This document shows, one piece after another, positions 22,534 through 29,670 of a stretch of 33,321 nucleotides of DNA. The position numbers and the translations under genes were made by a program. How positions within the stretch are numbered: position 1 is the stretch's first letter; every line of letters begins with the position of its first letter. Origin of the DNA: Thermoplasmata archaeon (GTDB lineage Archaea > Thermoplasmatota > E2 > UBA202 > JdFR-43); NCBI GenBank assembly GCA_008297865.1, contig VBQI01000008.1, forward strand, positions 1-33,321, read 5' to 3'. The notes under the pieces were generated by a model. The model was not told the DNA's origin. It saw only the letters and a program-made list of their open reading frames with translations, and ran no database searches.

Positions 22534-24171
22534 TTAGCCATAGGTAACGAAGCATGCATCCAGCATGCTTTCTCTCTCCCAACTAACCCCTGCATCCCCT
22601 GAGTGATAAAAACTTCCGTAAGGATATGGGTTTTTAATACCTACAACCCATACTACGCCCCAATCTGCATTGTTGCTTCTGCACACAATATAGTATTCTT
22701 TCCTAGGAACAACTTTTATATCCGGAAAATCAAACATTATCCACTCTGTTTCCCATTCTTTGCTGACAGGTATTGTGAGAGAGAAGGTCATCAAATCACT
22801 TCCATTAAGACTTTCTCTGAGCGAAATGGTTACTTCAAAATTTTCTTTCCAAGCAATCAAGCCGAGTTCAATTTTAGATAAATTGCTAATGCTTGGAATA
22901 AATGATTGGGCAAGCCATCTTGTATTGTTTATGATATATGCATAATATCCATTTACCTGTCTTTGATCAACTATTTTTTCTGCCATGCTAACTGTGAAAC
23001 TTGCTGTATCACTTTCAGCCCCTTTTTCATCTTCTGCAATCACTTTTATTACATATGTGCCTTCTTTATTCCATGAGTGAGACACGCTAATAACTTCTCC
23101 AGATTCATATAGCTTGCTCCATTCTGTAGATCCATCTCCCCAATCAATGAAGTATCTTATTCTATCCTCCTCTGGATCTTCTGAATAAAGCTGGTATGTT
23201 TGCAAAACATTTATTTTTCCCGTTTCATTTCCCGAAATTGTTGGCTCTGAAGGAGGTAGTTCAACTTCCGTTAGATACAACTCGCCTGGGTAGTCATCAA
23301 ATATTTGGGGATACATTCCATAATACTTTTCTATAATTGGCTGGGCGTACCAAAAGGCCTCTTCTGCTGAACATATTCCATCTCCATTTTTATCTCCATA
23401 CCCCTTCAGGCCCTCTACTAAATAATGTGTAAAAAATGAACCGTAAGAAGTATCTTCTTCTCTCACTGAAGTCATTACCACTCTATTTTTCCCCCTCAAT
23501 TCTACACTCAATTCTTTTGCAAATTTCTTTGCATAACTCCAGTTATCATTGAATCCGCCACTATGACAGCTATCTACAATTAAGCATATTCCTTTCGATT
23601 CCAGCCTGTTTAAAAAATAGTTAATTTCATCATCTGTTAAAATTGCAAATGGATTTGCCAACGGCTCCCAGCTCCATGGATTTTCAAAAGGCAGAAAGCC
23701 ACGATAGGTAGCGAGAGCTTCATCCATTTCGTCTTTTTCATCAAAAGGGGGTAAATCAAAGATTATTGGAAAACCATGTGTTGTGAGATAAATAAGACAA
23801 ATATCATTTTCATCTTCCATCTTATCGAGCCATCTGAAACCCTTTATTATATTGAGTAAAGTTGCATTCTCAGCAGTAATAACTTTTATATGATTCTCAT
23901 CCCACCATTCGGAAACAAGCAATGTTTTGTATAAATTCTCCACTTCTTTAAGCATGGACGGGCGGTTCATCTCTGGAACATTTGCATACACGCCAACAGC
24001 AACAAGCAAAGCCCAGTATTCTGTATCTGCAGAACTTTCCTCAAAGGAAATAACTGGTAATCTCATCTGCTCCTTTTCCTGAAAAACAGGTGCATTTGAT
24101 TCTGTCAACATTGAACTCAACATTAAACAAATTATAAGGAAAGGACCAAGTTCCTTTATAACGAGGGACAT
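22534..24171 (-). CDS. Secreted caspase-like (clan CD) peptidase with PKD and C-terminal beta domains
   Basis: A 545-residue protein starting at MSLVIKELG (24171). The track start at 24234 is less likely because the new start gives a signal peptide and has a TATA-like TTTTATATGG about 23 nt upstream. The peptidase core holds H132 (IYLTTHGFP) and C202 (LIVDSCHSGGFND), the clan CD catalytic dyad, preceded by ALLVAVGVYANVPEM. DKNGDGICSAEEA (about 260-272) is an EF-hand-like calcium loop. A PKD domain at about 305-400 carries FIDWGDGST and SHSWNKEGTY. A beta-sandwich at about 410-545 has QSFIPSISNLSKIELG. It is probably a surface or secreted calcium-dependent cysteine protease. Its target is unknown. 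It diverges from the phospholipase-D-like gene. Confidence 0.85.
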   Translation of the reverse strand: MSLVIKELGPFLIICLMLSSMLTESNAPVFQEKEQMRLPVISFEESSADTEYWALLVAVGVYANVPEMNRPSMLKEVENLYKTLLVSEWWDENHIKVITAENATLLNIIKGFRWLDKMEDENDICLIYLTTHGFPIIFDLPPFDEKDEMDEALATYRGFLPFENPWSWEPLANPFAILTDDEINYFLNRLESKGICLIVDSCHSGGFNDNWSYAKKFAKELSVELRGKNRVVMTSVREEDTSYGSFFTHYLVEGLKGYGDKNGDGICSAEEAFWYAQPIIEKYYGMYPQIFDDYPGELYLTEVELPPSEPTISGNETGKINVLQTYQLYSEDPEEDRIRYFIDWGDGSTEWSKLYESGEVISVSHSWNKEGTYVIKVIAEDEKGAESDTASFTVSMAEKIVDQRQVNGYYAYIINNTRWLAQSFIPSISNLSKIELGLIAWKENFEVTISLRESLNGSDLMTFSLTIPVSKEWETEWIMFDFPDIKVVPRKEYYIVCRSNNADWGVVWVVGIKNPYPYGSFYHSGDAGVSWERESMLDACFVTYG

Positions 24172-24188
24172 GAAATTAAAATCAATTT

Positions 24189-24240
24189 CCATATAAAAGA
24201 GTTTGTTCTCCCAAAAATGATATTCAAAATCCATTTATAC
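24189..24240. promoter_or_regulatory. Divergent promoters of the caspase-like and PLD-like genes
   Basis: Two separate TATA-like boxes face opposite ways: ccatataaaa at 24189-24198 for the minus-strand start at 24171, and catttatac at 24232-24240 for the plus-strand ATG at 24260. Each centres about 24 nt from its start codon, and neither gene has a Shine-Dalgarno sequence. Confidence 0.5.
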
Positions 24241-24259: not shown

Positions 24260-26320
24260 ATGAAAAAGATAATAGTATTGTTGCTAACTCTACTCTTAAC
24301 CATTTCATTATCTCATGCAAAAATTGACTTGGCTATTGAATGGATTAAAGCAGAAAGAATTGTAGGAGAGGGGGAAATTGTAGAAATAAAAGCTAAGGTT
24401 TTGAATTTAGGGGAAAGCACTTCCTTCACTATATCCTTCTATTATGATTCTATCGATCCAGAGCATCTAATAGCAAGGAAACATTATGATTCAATTAACG
24501 TGTACAGAATCCCATCTGTAAAGTGGGATACAAAGGATTTGATAGGCGACCATACAATTATTGCATATGTTGAGGATGGATACAAAGAAAACAATTATGC
24601 CTTCTACAATATTTCTATTGTTGAGACAAAACCAGATGAAAATGAAAGGAAAATAATGATTTGTGAAGTATATTATTATGCTCGTCCCAACAGGAATAAT
24701 GAATATATTTGCATAGCTAATAGTGGAGAGAGAAAAGTAAATATGGAAGGATGGTATCTCACTACTGAGCCGTGGGAAAGAGCAGATGAGCAGAATAAGA
24801 TCATTCTCCCTGATGTAGAACTAAATTGTAGTGAAAAAATTTACATTACCCAAAATGGGAGTAGCTTTAAAATAGAAACTGGATTTGAAGCAGATTTTGA
24901 ATGGTACAACTGCTCTCATGTGCCAGATATAGAAAGGGAAGGAAGGTTTGTTTTGCCGAATCATGGAGGAATTGTATGCCTTAAAGATAAATACAATCAT
25001 TCAATTGATGTTGTAGTTTACGGAGATGTTTCGTATAGCGATGGATGGATTGGAGAAGCAGTAAAAAATGTTGATAAAGGAGTTGTGTTAAAAAGAAAGG
25101 ATTTTGTCGATACAAATACAAGCAAGGATTGGGAGCGGAGTATTATTGGACAATCCGAATTCCCTTCTTTTAGGGGAAAAGCCTATAGAGCTATTGCTTT
25201 TTGCTCTCCCGATTGCTCTTATGATGTTATTTCTAAAGAGTTAGTAAATATAAGCGAGATAAAGCTAAACCTGTATATGTTTACCGATCCTTTTCTTGCG
25301 GATTTGTTAAATAAAACAAATGCAGAAATGAAAATTCTTTTAGATGGAAATGTAATCGGTGGCTTACCCATGGAAGAAAGATATATTGCATGGATGCTTA
25401 GCAAAAAAGGAGAAGTGAGATATATGATGGCAAATGAGGAAGAGGGTGTATACAAGAGATATAAGTATAATCATGCAAAATATGCGATTATAGACGGCAA
25501 AAAGTGCATTATAGAATCTGCAAATTGGGTGAAAAACGGCGTGCCCATCGATAATTCGTATGGAAATAGAGAATGGGGGGTTTTAATTGAGAATGAAAGC
25601 TTGGCAGACTATCTCTCAACTGTTTTTCTTTACGACTGGAACCCTTCTTTTCAAGATAGCATACCTTTCGATGAAAAAAGCTTCACACATGGCAGGCCAC
25701 CCGAAGATTTCTCTATGAATTATTTTATTCCAAAAGGTGACTATGTAGCAAAATTTTCACCTTTGTATTTAAATTCCTCTTTCAATTTTACAGTTATAGT
25801 TGCCCCAGACAATGCCGAAGAAGAAATATTACATCTTCTTGATACAGCTGAAAAAGAAATATTGGTTGAGCAGGCATATATTGAGAAAGATTGGGAAGAT
25901 GGAATTAATCCTTTGCTTGAAAAACTAATCGAGAAAAATGAGAGTGGGGTAAGGGTCAAGATTATACTTAACTACAATCCTGCATATTATTCAACAAATA
26001 AAATGAATGAGGAAACTTGCGATTTTTTGAAAAATATTGATGTTAAACTCCAAAAGGAATTGAATATACACAATAAAGGTGTAATTGTAGATGGAGAGAA
26101 AGTACTTATATCTTCTATTAATTGGGGAGAAAATTCAATAAGGAGAAATAGAGAGGTGGGAATAATAATAGAAAGTGAAGAGATGGCAGAATATTTTGAA
26201 AAAATTTTTTGGTATGACTGGAACTATAAATTTGAAGAAAAGGCAGGATATGAAAAAATATTTGTTTTCGCTATCTTTATAATAACCTTTCTCTTAATCT
26301 ACCTACATTGGAGGAAATGA
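24260..26320 (+). CDS. Membrane-anchored double phospholipase D-like protein with lamin-tail domain
   Basis: A 686-residue exported protein. It has a signal peptide (MKKIIVLLLTLLLTISLSHA), then a CARDB-like beta domain (about 25-120, RIVGEGEIVEIKAKVLNLGES), then a lamin-tail-like domain (about 130-290, ICEVYYYARPNRNNEYICIAN, GWYLTTEPW). Two PLD catalytic repeats follow, with HxK-x4-D: H405/K407/D412 in NHAKYAIIDG and H604/K606/D611 in HNKGVIVDG, each followed by the family Asn (SANW, SINW). A single C-terminal helix (664-683, IFVFAIFIITFLLIYLHW) with a basic end anchors it outside the cell. The PLD superfamily includes nucleases and lipases; lamin-tail plus PLD architectures suggest nuclease activity, but this is inference. 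It forms an operon with the rhomboid gene one base downstream. Confidence 0.87.
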   Translation: MKKIIVLLLTLLLTISLSHAKIDLAIEWIKAERIVGEGEIVEIKAKVLNLGESTSFTISFYYDSIDPEHLIARKHYDSINVYRIPSVKWDTKDLIGDHTIIAYVEDGYKENNYAFYNISIVETKPDENERKIMICEVYYYARPNRNNEYICIANSGERKVNMEGWYLTTEPWERADEQNKIILPDVELNCSEKIYITQNGSSFKIETGFEADFEWYNCSHVPDIEREGRFVLPNHGGIVCLKDKYNHSIDVVVYGDVSYSDGWIGEAVKNVDKGVVLKRKDFVDTNTSKDWERSIIGQSEFPSFRGKAYRAIAFCSPDCSYDVISKELVNISEIKLNLYMFTDPFLADLLNKTNAEMKILLDGNVIGGLPMEERYIAWMLSKKGEVRYMMANEEEGVYKRYKYNHAKYAIIDGKKCIIESANWVKNGVPIDNSYGNREWGVLIENESLADYLSTVFLYDWNPSFQDSIPFDEKSFTHGRPPEDFSMNYFIPKGDYVAKFSPLYLNSSFNFTVIVAPDNAEEEILHLLDTAEKEILVEQAYIEKDWEDGINPLLEKLIEKNESGVRVKIILNYNPAYYSTNKMNEETCDFLKNIDVKLQKELNIHNKGVIVDGEKVLISSINWGENSIRRNREVGIIIESEEMAEYFEKIFWYDWNYKFEEKAGYEKIFVFAIFIITFLLIYLHWRK

Positions 26321-26321
26321 A

Positions 26322-27185
26322 ATGCTTGCAAAAATAATTTCAATAGCTGTTCCTCTTGCCATCGTTCTTCCTATTGTATATGGATTTATCAGAAAAATTC
26401 CCTTATCGCTTATGCTAATCTTATCAAATTTTATCGTATTTTTTATAACATTTCCTTTTCTTAAGCTCGCAATAAATGAATTTGCATTCAATCCCTTATA
26501 TCTTAGCAGTTTAACTAAAATATATACTATTTTCACTTCAATGTTTTTGCATGGTGGTTTTGATCACATACTCTTCAATATGATTGGACTATTTTTTATT
26601 GGTTTACCATTTGAAAATGAAGTAGGGACAAAAAAATTCATCACCATATATTTCATTTCTGGAATTTCTGCTGCCTTGCTATTTTCCTTTTACAATTTTG
26701 GTGAAACTTATCTTATAGGGGCATCTGGAGCAATTTTTGGGATACTTGGCGCGTTTGCAGCATGTTGCCCATTTAAAAGAGTTTTTGTTCCTGTGCCAAT
26801 GTTCATAATGTTTTTTATGAGAATTCCCGTTATTGTTCTCGCCTTGCTATATGCTGGACTTGAAACATTCTATACATTGCTCGGTGCGCCTGATGGCGTT
26901 GCACATTCAGCTCATCTTGGGGGGTTCATAGCGGGCGTGTTTATGTATCCATTTATAAAAAGAAAGGTGGAAGCAAGGACTGACATCAACATTAATGATT
27001 TAGAGGAACTGATAGTTAACGATAAACAAAGAGAGATTTTTGATAAAGTGAAGCAGGCTGATGAAGCAGATGTAAGAGATGCATGGCTTTCCTATCTTTT
27101 AAAACATGTTAAATGTCCAAAATGTGGGGGAGAGATTTCTGTTAAAGAAGGAATAAAATGCAAAAAATGCGGTTATAAAAAATGA
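26322..27185 (+). CDS. Rhomboid-family intramembrane serine protease with C-terminal zinc ribbon
   Basis: A 287-residue rhomboid. The membrane core has about seven helices. HGGFDHILFNMIGL supplies the His/Asn oxyanion pair (H82, N86), S135 lies in the catalytic GASGAIFG motif, and H198 in HSAHLGGFIAG completes the dyad. After the last helix a charged cytosolic linker (about 212-262) leads to a four-Cys zinc ribbon (CPKCGGEISVKEGIKCKKCGYKK) at the very end, which is uncommon. A GGAGG lies inside the end of the PLD-like gene and supports the start at 26322. The 3' end overlaps the convergent presenilin-type gene by 13 nt. Substrates are likely single-span membrane proteins such as the anchored PLD-like protein next door; that is speculative. 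Confidence 0.92.
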   Translation: MLAKIISIAVPLAIVLPIVYGFIRKIPLSLMLILSNFIVFFITFPFLKLAINEFAFNPLYLSSLTKIYTIFTSMFLHGGFDHILFNMIGLFFIGLPFENEVGTKKFITIYFISGISAALLFSFYNFGETYLIGASGAIFGILGAFAACCPFKRVFVPVPMFIMFFMRIPVIVLALLYAGLETFYTLLGAPDGVAHSAHLGGFIAGVFMYPFIKRKVEARTDININDLEELIVNDKQREIFDKVKQADEADVRDAWLSYLLKHVKCPKCGGEISVKEGIKCKKCGYKK

Positions 27186-28288
27186 AGAATTACATATGCT
27201 ACAATCACTCCTCCATTTAAATATGGCAACCCTGGCTGTGGGCCTTTCGAAATAAGCGTCATGAGGAGAATATAGCCAATTAATGCTCCTAGTAATGTTA
27301 AAATAAAGCCCGTCAGTCCATATTCAAGATAGGATGCAGTAATCAGAATCCCTGGAATTACAACGTCTCCGAGCCCCATATAAACTGCATCCCTCTCATC
27401 TCGCCATTTATCCCTTAAATATGAATAAGAAGCTTTTTTTGGGAAAATCATGAGCAATGGAAGATGAGACGATACCGCTGTTTCTGCAAGTTTTACCATA
27501 TGTTTTGTTTTGTAAACAGAAACCGCATCATAAATTGCTAAAGCAATGAGAAATAGTAGTATTAGCTCAATTGAAAGTGATATGGCAAAAATGGCAGATA
27601 TACCTCCAGCAAGAAAAATTCCGAAAGTGTCAATAACATACCACTCTGGATATTTTACTAAAAGAAACAACATTACCACTGATATTATAAAAGCAGACAA
27701 AATGGCAAAAGTAGATTCATATGCAAATGAAACATCAGTTTCTATTGGCGGAACATTATTTCCTTTTCTCTCTCCCTTGATATAAATGACTTTACTTTCT
27801 CCCCCTCTAATTTCAGTAAGTGTCCATCTATTGTTGAATCCGGTATCATTTGCGGGCTGGGAAGAAATGAAAGTAAAATTTTCATGGTAAAGCGTAGATA
27901 CAACAACATTTTTTACAGGTTTATTTCCTGTATTGTTCACCCATATGGTATATATTAATTTGCCTCCTTGAAAATCCACTTTCTCCTCGATAGTTAAAGA
28001 AGGACTATCTACGGAATAGAAGAAAGCCTGAAAAATGGTGAATGCTGTAAGAAAGAAAAATAACAATATTATATATTTCACCAAATTTTTTCTATACTTT
28101 GCTATAAGCAAAATAATCAGGGTAAAAATGAGGATAATAAAAAAGATGTAAACAATGTTAAGTGGATCATTAGGATTTTCAAATGTTTCAAATCCCGCTT
28201 CTTTAAAAGATGGAGCAACAAAAATTGCTATAAGCTGGCTCACAACAAAAAGCACTGCCATGCCAGCAGGTGCACCAAATTTTTTCAT
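27173..28288 (-). CDS. Presenilin/signal-peptide-peptidase-like GxGD protease with inserted Ig-like domain
   Basis: A 371-residue aspartyl intramembrane protease of the archaeal presenilin family. Both catalytic aspartates are visible: D254 in ALAIYDAVSVYKTKHM (the YD motif) and D308 in MGLGDVVIPGIL (GxGD). The PAL-like motif GLPYLNGG is at 353-360. Helices lie around 10-25, 44-64 and 70-90, and then from 192 on. Between residues about 92 and 190 there is a hydrophilic beta-rich domain (KLIYTIWVNNTGNKPVKNVVV, GGESKVIYIKGER) resembling DUF11/CARDB Ig-like domains, probably outside the membrane. This insertion is unusual. The family cleaves transmembrane peptides. The gene is convergent with the rhomboid gene. 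Confidence 0.87.
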   Translation of the reverse strand: MKKFGAPAGMAVLFVVSQLIAIFVAPSFKEAGFETFENPNDPLNIVYIFFIILIFTLIILLIAKYRKNLVKYIILLFFFLTAFTIFQAFFYSVDSPSLTIEEKVDFQGGKLIYTIWVNNTGNKPVKNVVVSTLYHENFTFISSQPANDTGFNNRWTLTEIRGGESKVIYIKGERKGNNVPPIETDVSFAYESTFAILSAFIISVVMLFLLVKYPEWYVIDTFGIFLAGGISAIFAISLSIELILLFLIALAIYDAVSVYKTKHMVKLAETAVSSHLPLLMIFPKKASYSYLRDKWRDERDAVYMGLGDVVIPGILITASYLEYGLTGFILTLLGALIGYILLMTLISKGPQPGLPYLNGGVIVAYVILHFL

Positions 28289-28703: not shown

Positions 28704-29150
28704 TTAATCAAAAACGATTCCTATTACAACGCCAGAAAATCCGGCAATAGCAAAAATTGCCGGAAGCATTACGTACATAGAGAAACCTACAAAAGGGATA
28801 AATATTGCTACATGAACAGCATGTGCCCAATGCCCCTGCAAACCTTGAGTATCGAGAAAGGTAATAGGAAAGGCAATAAGTGCTGGAGTCAATGGAATGA
28901 ATGGAGGAAATATTATTCCACCTCCTATTCCAACTACTTTGCACATAGTATTAACATATATGCTATCCTCTCCGAATTTTTCCTGCAAAATTTCAATAAA
29001 AACTTCTATTTCTTCTTCAGTAAATCCTCCTTCCCGTATGCTTTTAAGTTCATCTATCACAAAATCAATTTCGTTTTTTTCTTTTTTATTCGGGCTTACA
29101 CACGGTAAGCAAATTGAGAAAATTATAAGGAAAGCAATAAATTTTCTCAT
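28704..29150 (-). CDS. Exported or membrane protein of unknown function
   Basis: A 148-residue protein with a signal peptide (MRKFIAFLIIFSICLPCVSP, possibly lipoprotein-like around the Cys). An acidic helical stretch follows (EIDFVIDELKSIREGGFTEEEIEVFIEILQEKFGE), then hydrophobic segments VGIGGGIIFPPFIPLTPALIAFPIT, HAVHVAIFIPFVGFSMYVML and AIFAIAGFSGVVIGIVF. I do not recognise the family. A strong TATA-like tatatata (29171-29178) centres about 24 nt before the ATG. It is divergent from the BsuPI-like gene. Confidence 0.65.
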   Translation of the reverse strand: MRKFIAFLIIFSICLPCVSPNKKEKNEIDFVIDELKSIREGGFTEEEIEVFIEILQEKFGEDSIYVNTMCKVVGIGGGIIFPPFIPLTPALIAFPITFLDTQGLQGHWAHAVHVAIFIPFVGFSMYVMLPAIFAIAGFSGVVIGIVFD

Positions 29151-29170
29151 TGTAATAATTTCTCTACCCC

Positions 29171-29178
29171 TATATATA
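29171..29178 (-). promoter_or_regulatory. TATA-like box upstream of the 28704-29150 gene
   Basis: The octamer tatatata, self-complementary, centres about 24 nt before the minus-strand ATG at 29150, and no Shine-Dalgarno sequence follows. For the divergent plus-strand gene at 29236 a separate, weaker cttatttact lies at 29211-29220. Confidence 0.5.
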
Positions 29179-29235
29179 GTTCACCTTTTGATTAACAATT
29201 TCGCAAGCATCTTATTTACTTTCTGTTTTATGAAT

Positions 29236-29670
29236 ATGAAAGGTATACTACTTGGGATAGTGATAATCGGAATAATTGCATCTGCATATTTTATGATGGC
29301 AAATGGAGATTATGCCATTGTGGTGAAAACAGATAAGCATACCTATTCTCTAAATGAAGAAATACATATCTGGATCGAAATTAAAGATTATGACAGTAAG
29401 AATATAAAATTTCCTTCATCAAAAATTGCTGACTTCTGCATTTATAAAGGAGAAGAAAAATTGTATCAGTGGTCGGAAAATAGAAGTTTTTTACAGGTTA
29501 TTACCTCGATAAATCTCTCGAAAGGAATGATATTATTAGAAACAACTATTCCTGCAAATATGTTGGGCATCGGAACTTTTGAAATAAGAGCGTGGATGGA
29601 AAAATTTTATGAAAATGGAGAAATCCATCCTGAAGTATATGCAAAGTCAATTAGCTTTTCTATATCATGA
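29236..29670 (+). CDS. Membrane-tethered BsuPI-like proteinase inhibitor domain protein
   Basis: A 144-residue protein starting at MKGILLGIVIIGIIASAYFMM, a signal anchor. The track start at 28897 is antisense to the neighbouring gene and should be dropped; ATG 29230 is a near alternative. The rest is an Ig-like beta domain. Residues 38-101 follow the BsuPI (intracellular proteinase inhibitor) pattern: YSLNEEIHIWIEIKD, IKFPSSKIADFCIYKGEEKL, YQWSENRSFLQVITSINLSKG, matching the family's YDF-x-I, V-y-x-WS and F-tQ elements. It ends in FEIRAWMEKF and KSISFSIS strands. In Bacillus the inhibitor blocks a subtilisin. Here it would lie outside the membrane. Inhibition is inferred from fold similarity only. 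Confidence 0.68.
   Translation: MKGILLGIVIIGIIASAYFMMANGDYAIVVKTDKHTYSLNEEIHIWIEIKDYDSKNIKFPSSKIADFCIYKGEEKLYQWSENRSFLQVITSINLSKGMILLETTIPANMLGIGTFEIRAWMEKFYENGEIHPEVYAKSISFSIS

Follow-up and report, generated by a model that had tools for sequence, protein, structure and literature searches.

How does an archaeal presenilin homologue come to carry an Ig-like domain in the middle of its membrane core, and what might the domain do there? The question is raised by a gene of 371 codons with an ATG start, transcribed on the minus strand (28288..27173) of the window, the 33,321-nucleotide stretch of Thermoplasmata archaeon DNA that was analysed. The original prediction was of a presenilin-type GxGD protease with a functional-looking core, interrupted by an extracytoplasmic domain set between membrane helices 3 and 4 that could recruit substrates, much as nicastrin does for gamma-secretase but within one chain.

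The protease core and the inserted domain

From its sequence, the 371-residue product is recognizable as an archaeal presenilin homologue (PSH; peptidase family A22) in which all catalytic and family-invariant residues are kept. It matches both the Pfam signal-peptide-peptidase/presenilin family PF06550 (1.4e-57, 195.8 bits, cut-off 23.9) and the NCBIfam PSH model IMP_arch_presen (NF041679; 1.3e-68, 231.5 bits, cut-off 125), and each match is split in two by the insert. The gene, its parts and its neighbours have the following window coordinates:

27173..28288, minus strand, PSH with an inserted DUF11 domain, 371 aa (PF06550 1.4e-57, NF041679 1.3e-68, AlphaFold/Foldseek)
28007..28288, minus strand, N-terminal part of the PSH core, residues 1–94, helices 1–3 (51–70% identity to same-family PSHs)
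27716..28006, minus strand, inserted DUF11/CLIPPER Ig-like unit, residues 95–191 (PF01345 2.1e-8)
27176..27715, minus strand, C-terminal part of the PSH core, residues 192–371, helices 4–9 and active site (59–74% identity to same-family PSHs)
27527..27532, minus strand, YD motif with catalytic D254 (invariant in 47 aligned PSHs)
27365..27376, minus strand, GLGD motif with catalytic D308 (G305, G307 and D308 invariant in 47 aligned PSHs)
27215..27232, minus strand, GLPYLN, the PAL-equivalent motif, residues 353–358 (G353, L354 and P355 invariant in 47 PSHs)
26322..27185, plus strand, rhomboid protease with a zinc-ribbon-like C-terminal end (PF01694 1.8e-31)
24260..26320, plus strand, protein with an LTD and two PLD domains, anchored to the membrane at its C-terminus and probably exported (PLDc_2 4.5e-33)

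The three motifs expected of a functional core, YD (Y253-D254), GLGD (G305-L306-G307-D308) and GLPYLN (G353-L354-P355 and the three residues that follow), are all present with their key positions invariant across the alignment of 47 PSHs, and the protease core is intact and predicted to be working. In the AlphaFold model the helical core mostly has pLDDT values of 90–98, with the N-terminal helices at residues 2–30, 43–65 and 67–94, and the modelled protein has the nine-helix PSH/presenilin fold. Foldseek searches with this model return the PSH structures 4hyg, 4y6k and 4hyc as best matches, followed by SPPL2a and PSEN1. These PSH structures are of MCMJR1 from Methanoculleus marisnigri (4HYC, 4HYG, 4Y6K; NF041679), which has a homologous core (sequence E 8e-39), a matching fold (probability 1.00, TM-score about 0.8 by target) and the YD, GxGD and xGLP motifs in common with our protein, but which has a short TM3-TM4 turn with no ectodomain.

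The segment between helices 3 and 4 scores above the gathering cut-off of Pfam DUF11 (PF01345) when searched alone (34.9 bits, cut-off 24.6, 2.1e-8), which bears out the DUF11-type assignment, and its limits at about residues 95–191 lie close to the 92–190 first proposed. Hydropathy stays below 0.43 in 19-residue windows, so the insert holds no membrane helix, and the segment modelled alone from its single sequence has six strands and no helix, at low confidence (mean pLDDT 53.8). The reading of this segment as transmembrane helices, named in advance as one that would overturn the prediction, thus finds no support. In the full AlphaFold model the insert has pLDDT values of 32–69, the underlying alignment being without relatives for this part. 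The best Foldseek matches of the separate insert model are largely FN3/Ig-like sandwiches, including CARDB 3idu, none of them with E<0.001. Profile searches with the insert match DUF11-type domains only, and no nicastrin-type ectodomain was found among them. A match to EcoT38I (E 0.12) was disregarded, and designed armadillo proteins matched by the DUF11 profile in the PDB were rejected as chance matches summed over repeats.

DUF11/CLIPPER domains are Ig-like, extracellular stalk units with a covalent isopeptide cross-link (PMC12617251). The insert resembles those of fibrillar adhesins (PF01345, PMC12617251) in its above-cut-off family score and whole-unit boundaries, but the adhesin domains are tandem units in a stalk, whereas here a single unit lies within a membrane protease. 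In the isopeptide-catalyst region of the alignment the relatives' acidic ETYD is replaced by TLYH, so this place is without the acidic residue of cross-linking DUF11/CLIPPER domains and a covalent cross-link of that type is not expected. The Lys-Asp-Asn isopeptide triad is not universal among DUF11/CLIPPER domains.

Lysine and arginine counts are 2 for the N-terminus, 4 for loop 2, 1 for loop 4, 9 for loop 6 and 1 for loop 8, and 1, 0 and 0 for loops 1, 5 and 7. The protein has three N-glycosylation sequons (NNT118, NFT137 and NDT147), all in the insert. This positive-inside pattern together with the sequons places the insert outside the cell, in agreement with the extracytoplasmic side originally predicted, and by the positive-inside rule the helix 3-4 loop is predicted to be outside, as in presenilin.

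Origin of the insert

The insertion is clean. When residues 1–94 and 192–371 are joined as a query, close family members align over all 274 of 274 columns without a gap, and the helix 3-4 stretch spans 113 residues here versus 9–42 in 100 other PSHs, most of which have 14–20. Across the class (80 genomes, 75 with a PSH) no further helix 3-4 insert is present, and no DUF11 insert was found in the PSHs of 16 genomes of the same family; the scan of presenilin homologues suggested earlier thus leaves the DUF11 insert without a counterpart in the class. Two-piece PSH matches in two further genomes (G014 and G047) are not insertions, the splits falling at contig ends. In a tree of 104 cores the insert-bearing PSH is nested among uninserted members of its family, whose clade is fully supported, and its core has an ordinary tip length of 0.30 changes per column (about 0.29–0.50 in uninserted relatives). 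The gap-free alignment, the class-wide absence and the tree placement together indicate that the insert was gained in the present lineage, with the core neither losing residues nor visibly decaying.

The insert is most similar to DUF11 repeats from sister genera, at up to 49% identity. Matches to it occur in 11 of the 17 family genomes, one of which is its own; in the other ten the related units occur as repeats of surface-type proteins whose open frames are approximately 580–1640 aa long. The insert starts with SPSLTI and ends with SFAYE, and the sister-genus repeat units start with PSLTI and end with SFTYE (SF.YE); this coincidence of the insert ends with the repeat ends indicates capture of one whole repeat unit. 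No further DUF11 of this kind is found in its own genome (81% complete) at E<=1, and no DUF11 relatives were confirmed in viral contigs. The junctions show no target-site duplication, the longest word common to both being 7 bases, and the base composition of the insert is that of its host gene, both in GC and in GC3 (0.258, versus 0.261–0.287 in the flanking gene parts).

The rhomboid ORF is convergent with the PSH ORF and overlaps it by 13 bp. The same tail-to-tail arrangement is present in 19 related loci (L003, L004, L006, L007, L008, L015, L016, L019, L023, L027, L029, L036, L041, L045, L059, L062, L069, L074 and L077) with spacings of −21 to +62 bp, mostly 3–15. The LTD/double-PLD protein gene follows the rhomboid gene, and homologues of it accompany the PSH/rhomboid pair in 13 loci. 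This recurrence of the rhomboid and PLD/LTD neighbourhood establishes the PSH locus as the orthologous one.

Other domains at the same site

A phylum-wide search of 323 genomes turned up many PSHs whose model match breaks at this position. When 40 of these were re-examined, 30 had both halves in a single open frame of 534–902 codons, giving at least 30 genomes with large TM3-TM4 insertions, all in other classes of the phylum; phyla beyond the window's own were represented through 80 loci. Twenty-four such proteins were extracted:

L144, L146-L148 and L151-L170, large-insert PSHs from other classes, insertions of 221–408 aa

In these the TM3-TM4 insertion falls in the same column as the DUF11 insert, YD, GxGD and xGLP are kept in 24 of 24, and the inserts are acidic with 3–9 sequons. 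They thus share with the DUF11-bearing protein the insertion column, an intact catalytic apparatus and an extracytoplasmic character, but at 221–408 aa they have no sequence relation to DUF11, and many carry weak beta-propeller signatures. The earlier statement that archaeal PSHs are generally compact holds for the organism's own class and for methanogens, but not for these other classes. A literature search, with subscription papers mostly outside its reach, returned no account of archaeal PSHs with inserted ectodomains.

One homologous group of large inserts covers four genome families (f16, f24, f26 and f34), and the inserts of f19, f35 and f39 have no detectable relation to this group, one weak match excepted. 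Three members of the group match the BBS7 beta-propeller below the cut-off (best 5e-4), as does one protein from f39 (1.5e-4), and the group profile matches designed 'Cake' beta-propellers with scores that sum over repeats. These matches hint that many of the large TM3-TM4 inserts could be propeller-like. In the tree of 104 cores the insert bearers fall in three separate places, and the deep branches are weak, so the number of insertion gains is not settled by the tree. The DUF11 insert is nonetheless an independent event, since it is unrelated to the other inserts and lies in an insertion-free clade.

We suggest tentatively, as a possibility rather below even likelihood, that the TM3-TM4 turn is a phylum-wide 'ectodomain port' in Thermoplasmatota-type archaea, which would have given rise to several independent single-chain presenilins with a receptor-like, substrate-selecting ectodomain (propeller- or Ig-like), each a one-protein counterpart of gamma-secretase. 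The DUF11-bearing PSH would then be the smallest and most lineage-restricted example.

Some PSHs also have extra residues in another loop. Two genomes have PSH matches in three pieces (G161:C38:846-3122 and G302:C115:4355-6541), the TM6-TM7 loop being lengthened in addition to the TM3-TM4 insertion, and in two Methanimicrococcus loci (L064 and L056) the TM6-TM7 loop, between the catalytic aspartates, is approximately 35–50 residues longer.

Possible roles of the inserted domain

In the explanation that we put forward, a PSH took up a complete DUF11 Ig-like unit from the repeats of a surface protein belonging to the same lineage. The unit entered the very short extracytoplasmic helix 3-4 turn, the single place in this protease that has been used repeatedly for outside domains. 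The domain would lie over the membrane beside helices 3 and 4, where it may limit or favour the membrane proteins that reach the active site, either as a size gate or as a docking surface, and catalysis at D254 and D308 would be unchanged. We regard the anatomical and evolutionary part of this account as close to certain, whereas the account as a whole, with the captured unit acting as a gating or docking ectodomain, has about equal chances of being right and wrong. Taken alone, a gating or docking function, proposed by analogy, is the likeliest role for the insert, though we give it somewhat less than even weight.

Such a domain would act as the PA domains of SPPL2 proteases do, and roughly in the manner of nicastrin, yet in a single chain. 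Human SPPL2a/b (PMC12043953; 9k92/9k93) are related nine-helix GxGD proteases in which a glycosylated lumenal/extracellular portion of the same chain, the PA domain, tunes substrate choice (PMC12043953). This domain differs from the DUF11 insert in being N-terminal and of a different fold, whereas the Ig-like unit lies between TM3 and TM4, and SPPL2 cleaves type II substrates; no match to an N-terminal PA domain is found in the 371-residue PSH, in which only about 8 residues precede helix 1. Gamma-secretase similarly has a presenilin core under a large ectodomain that excludes bulky substrates, but nicastrin is a separate aminopeptidase-like subunit, and since TM3 and TM4 of human presenilin (PS1) contact PEN-2 (PMC7248309, PMC4326451) the position of the insert is not that of nicastrin. 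No nicastrin homology was found in the DUF11-bearing PSH. The nicastrin comparison thus seems apt only as a functional analogy, and the SPPL2 PA domain would be the better one.

Several points count against gating. In human presenilin, TM3 and TM4 lie at a distance from where substrates are proposed to enter (TM2/TM6 and loop 1), DUF11 units mostly serve as passive modules of stalks (PMC12617251), and the insert is modelled with low confidence. The generic stalk character of DUF11 also favours a reading in which a permissive loop has simply tolerated the unit as a passenger, neutral or purely stabilizing, with substrates unaffected. The insert is seen in a single genome, an 81% complete draft of 83 contigs, such that there is no conservation to show selection on it, and the core has evolved at a rate like that of its uninserted relatives; for the first of these reasons a passenger is nearly as likely as a gating or docking domain, although the intact frame, the host-like base composition of the insert and the long-term retention of ectodomains at the same site in other lineages speak against it, and we consider it a doubtful but serious contender. 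It is unlikely that the unit is instead a surface tether, binding DUF11-rich adhesin or S-layer-like proteins and thereby holding the protease at the envelope, where it might for instance help to turn over what is left of surface proteins. The sequences most similar to the insert are indeed repeats of 580–1640 aa surface-type proteins in sister genera, but its own genome (81% complete) has no other such DUF11 at E<=1, and lateral DUF11-DUF11 binding is not established.

Two further readings concern topology and assembly. The SPP/SPPL proteases of eukaryotes lie in the membrane the other way round from presenilin (PMC2947513), and an SPP-type orientation here would leave the insert in the cytoplasm; this is very improbable, as the N-terminus and the TM2-TM3 and TM6-TM7 loops are K/R-rich and the odd loops K/R-poor, DUF11 is an exported domain and here contains all three sequons, and the inserts that occupy this position in other lineages are acidic and have 3–9 sequons apiece. 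Least credible of all is that the insert is an artefact of a chimeric assembly or a mis-binned fragment, as its occurrence in one draft genome might invite. The conserved place of the gene beside the rhomboid gene and a GC3 equal to that of the gene argue against an assembly error, as do two junctions that are both in frame at a domain boundary, the absence of a second copy of the insert from the genome, a gene order that is preserved on the side of the C-terminus and the use of the same insertion column by other lineages.

Ectodomain control over presenilin-type cleavage is an open question for both gamma-secretase and SPPL2, and these related archaeal PSHs, in which one fixed site is occupied by an Ig-like unit, by a propeller-like domain or not at all, and which have no known partner subunits, constitute a natural experiment on it. 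They also identify a part of the presenilin fold shown to tolerate domains of 100–400 residues, and the gap-free pairing of the DUF11-bearing PSH with its family members provides a precise deletion boundary.

The side-by-side position of two intramembrane proteases, the PSH and the rhomboid (window 26322-28288), suggests a functional link between them. The window also encodes an archaeal caspase-like (Peptidase_C14) protein that has a PKD domain and is probably exported (22534-24234, minus strand). Close upstream of the PSH gene, a further ORF encodes a domain of the BsuPI (intracellular proteinase inhibitor) type (28897-29670, plus strand).
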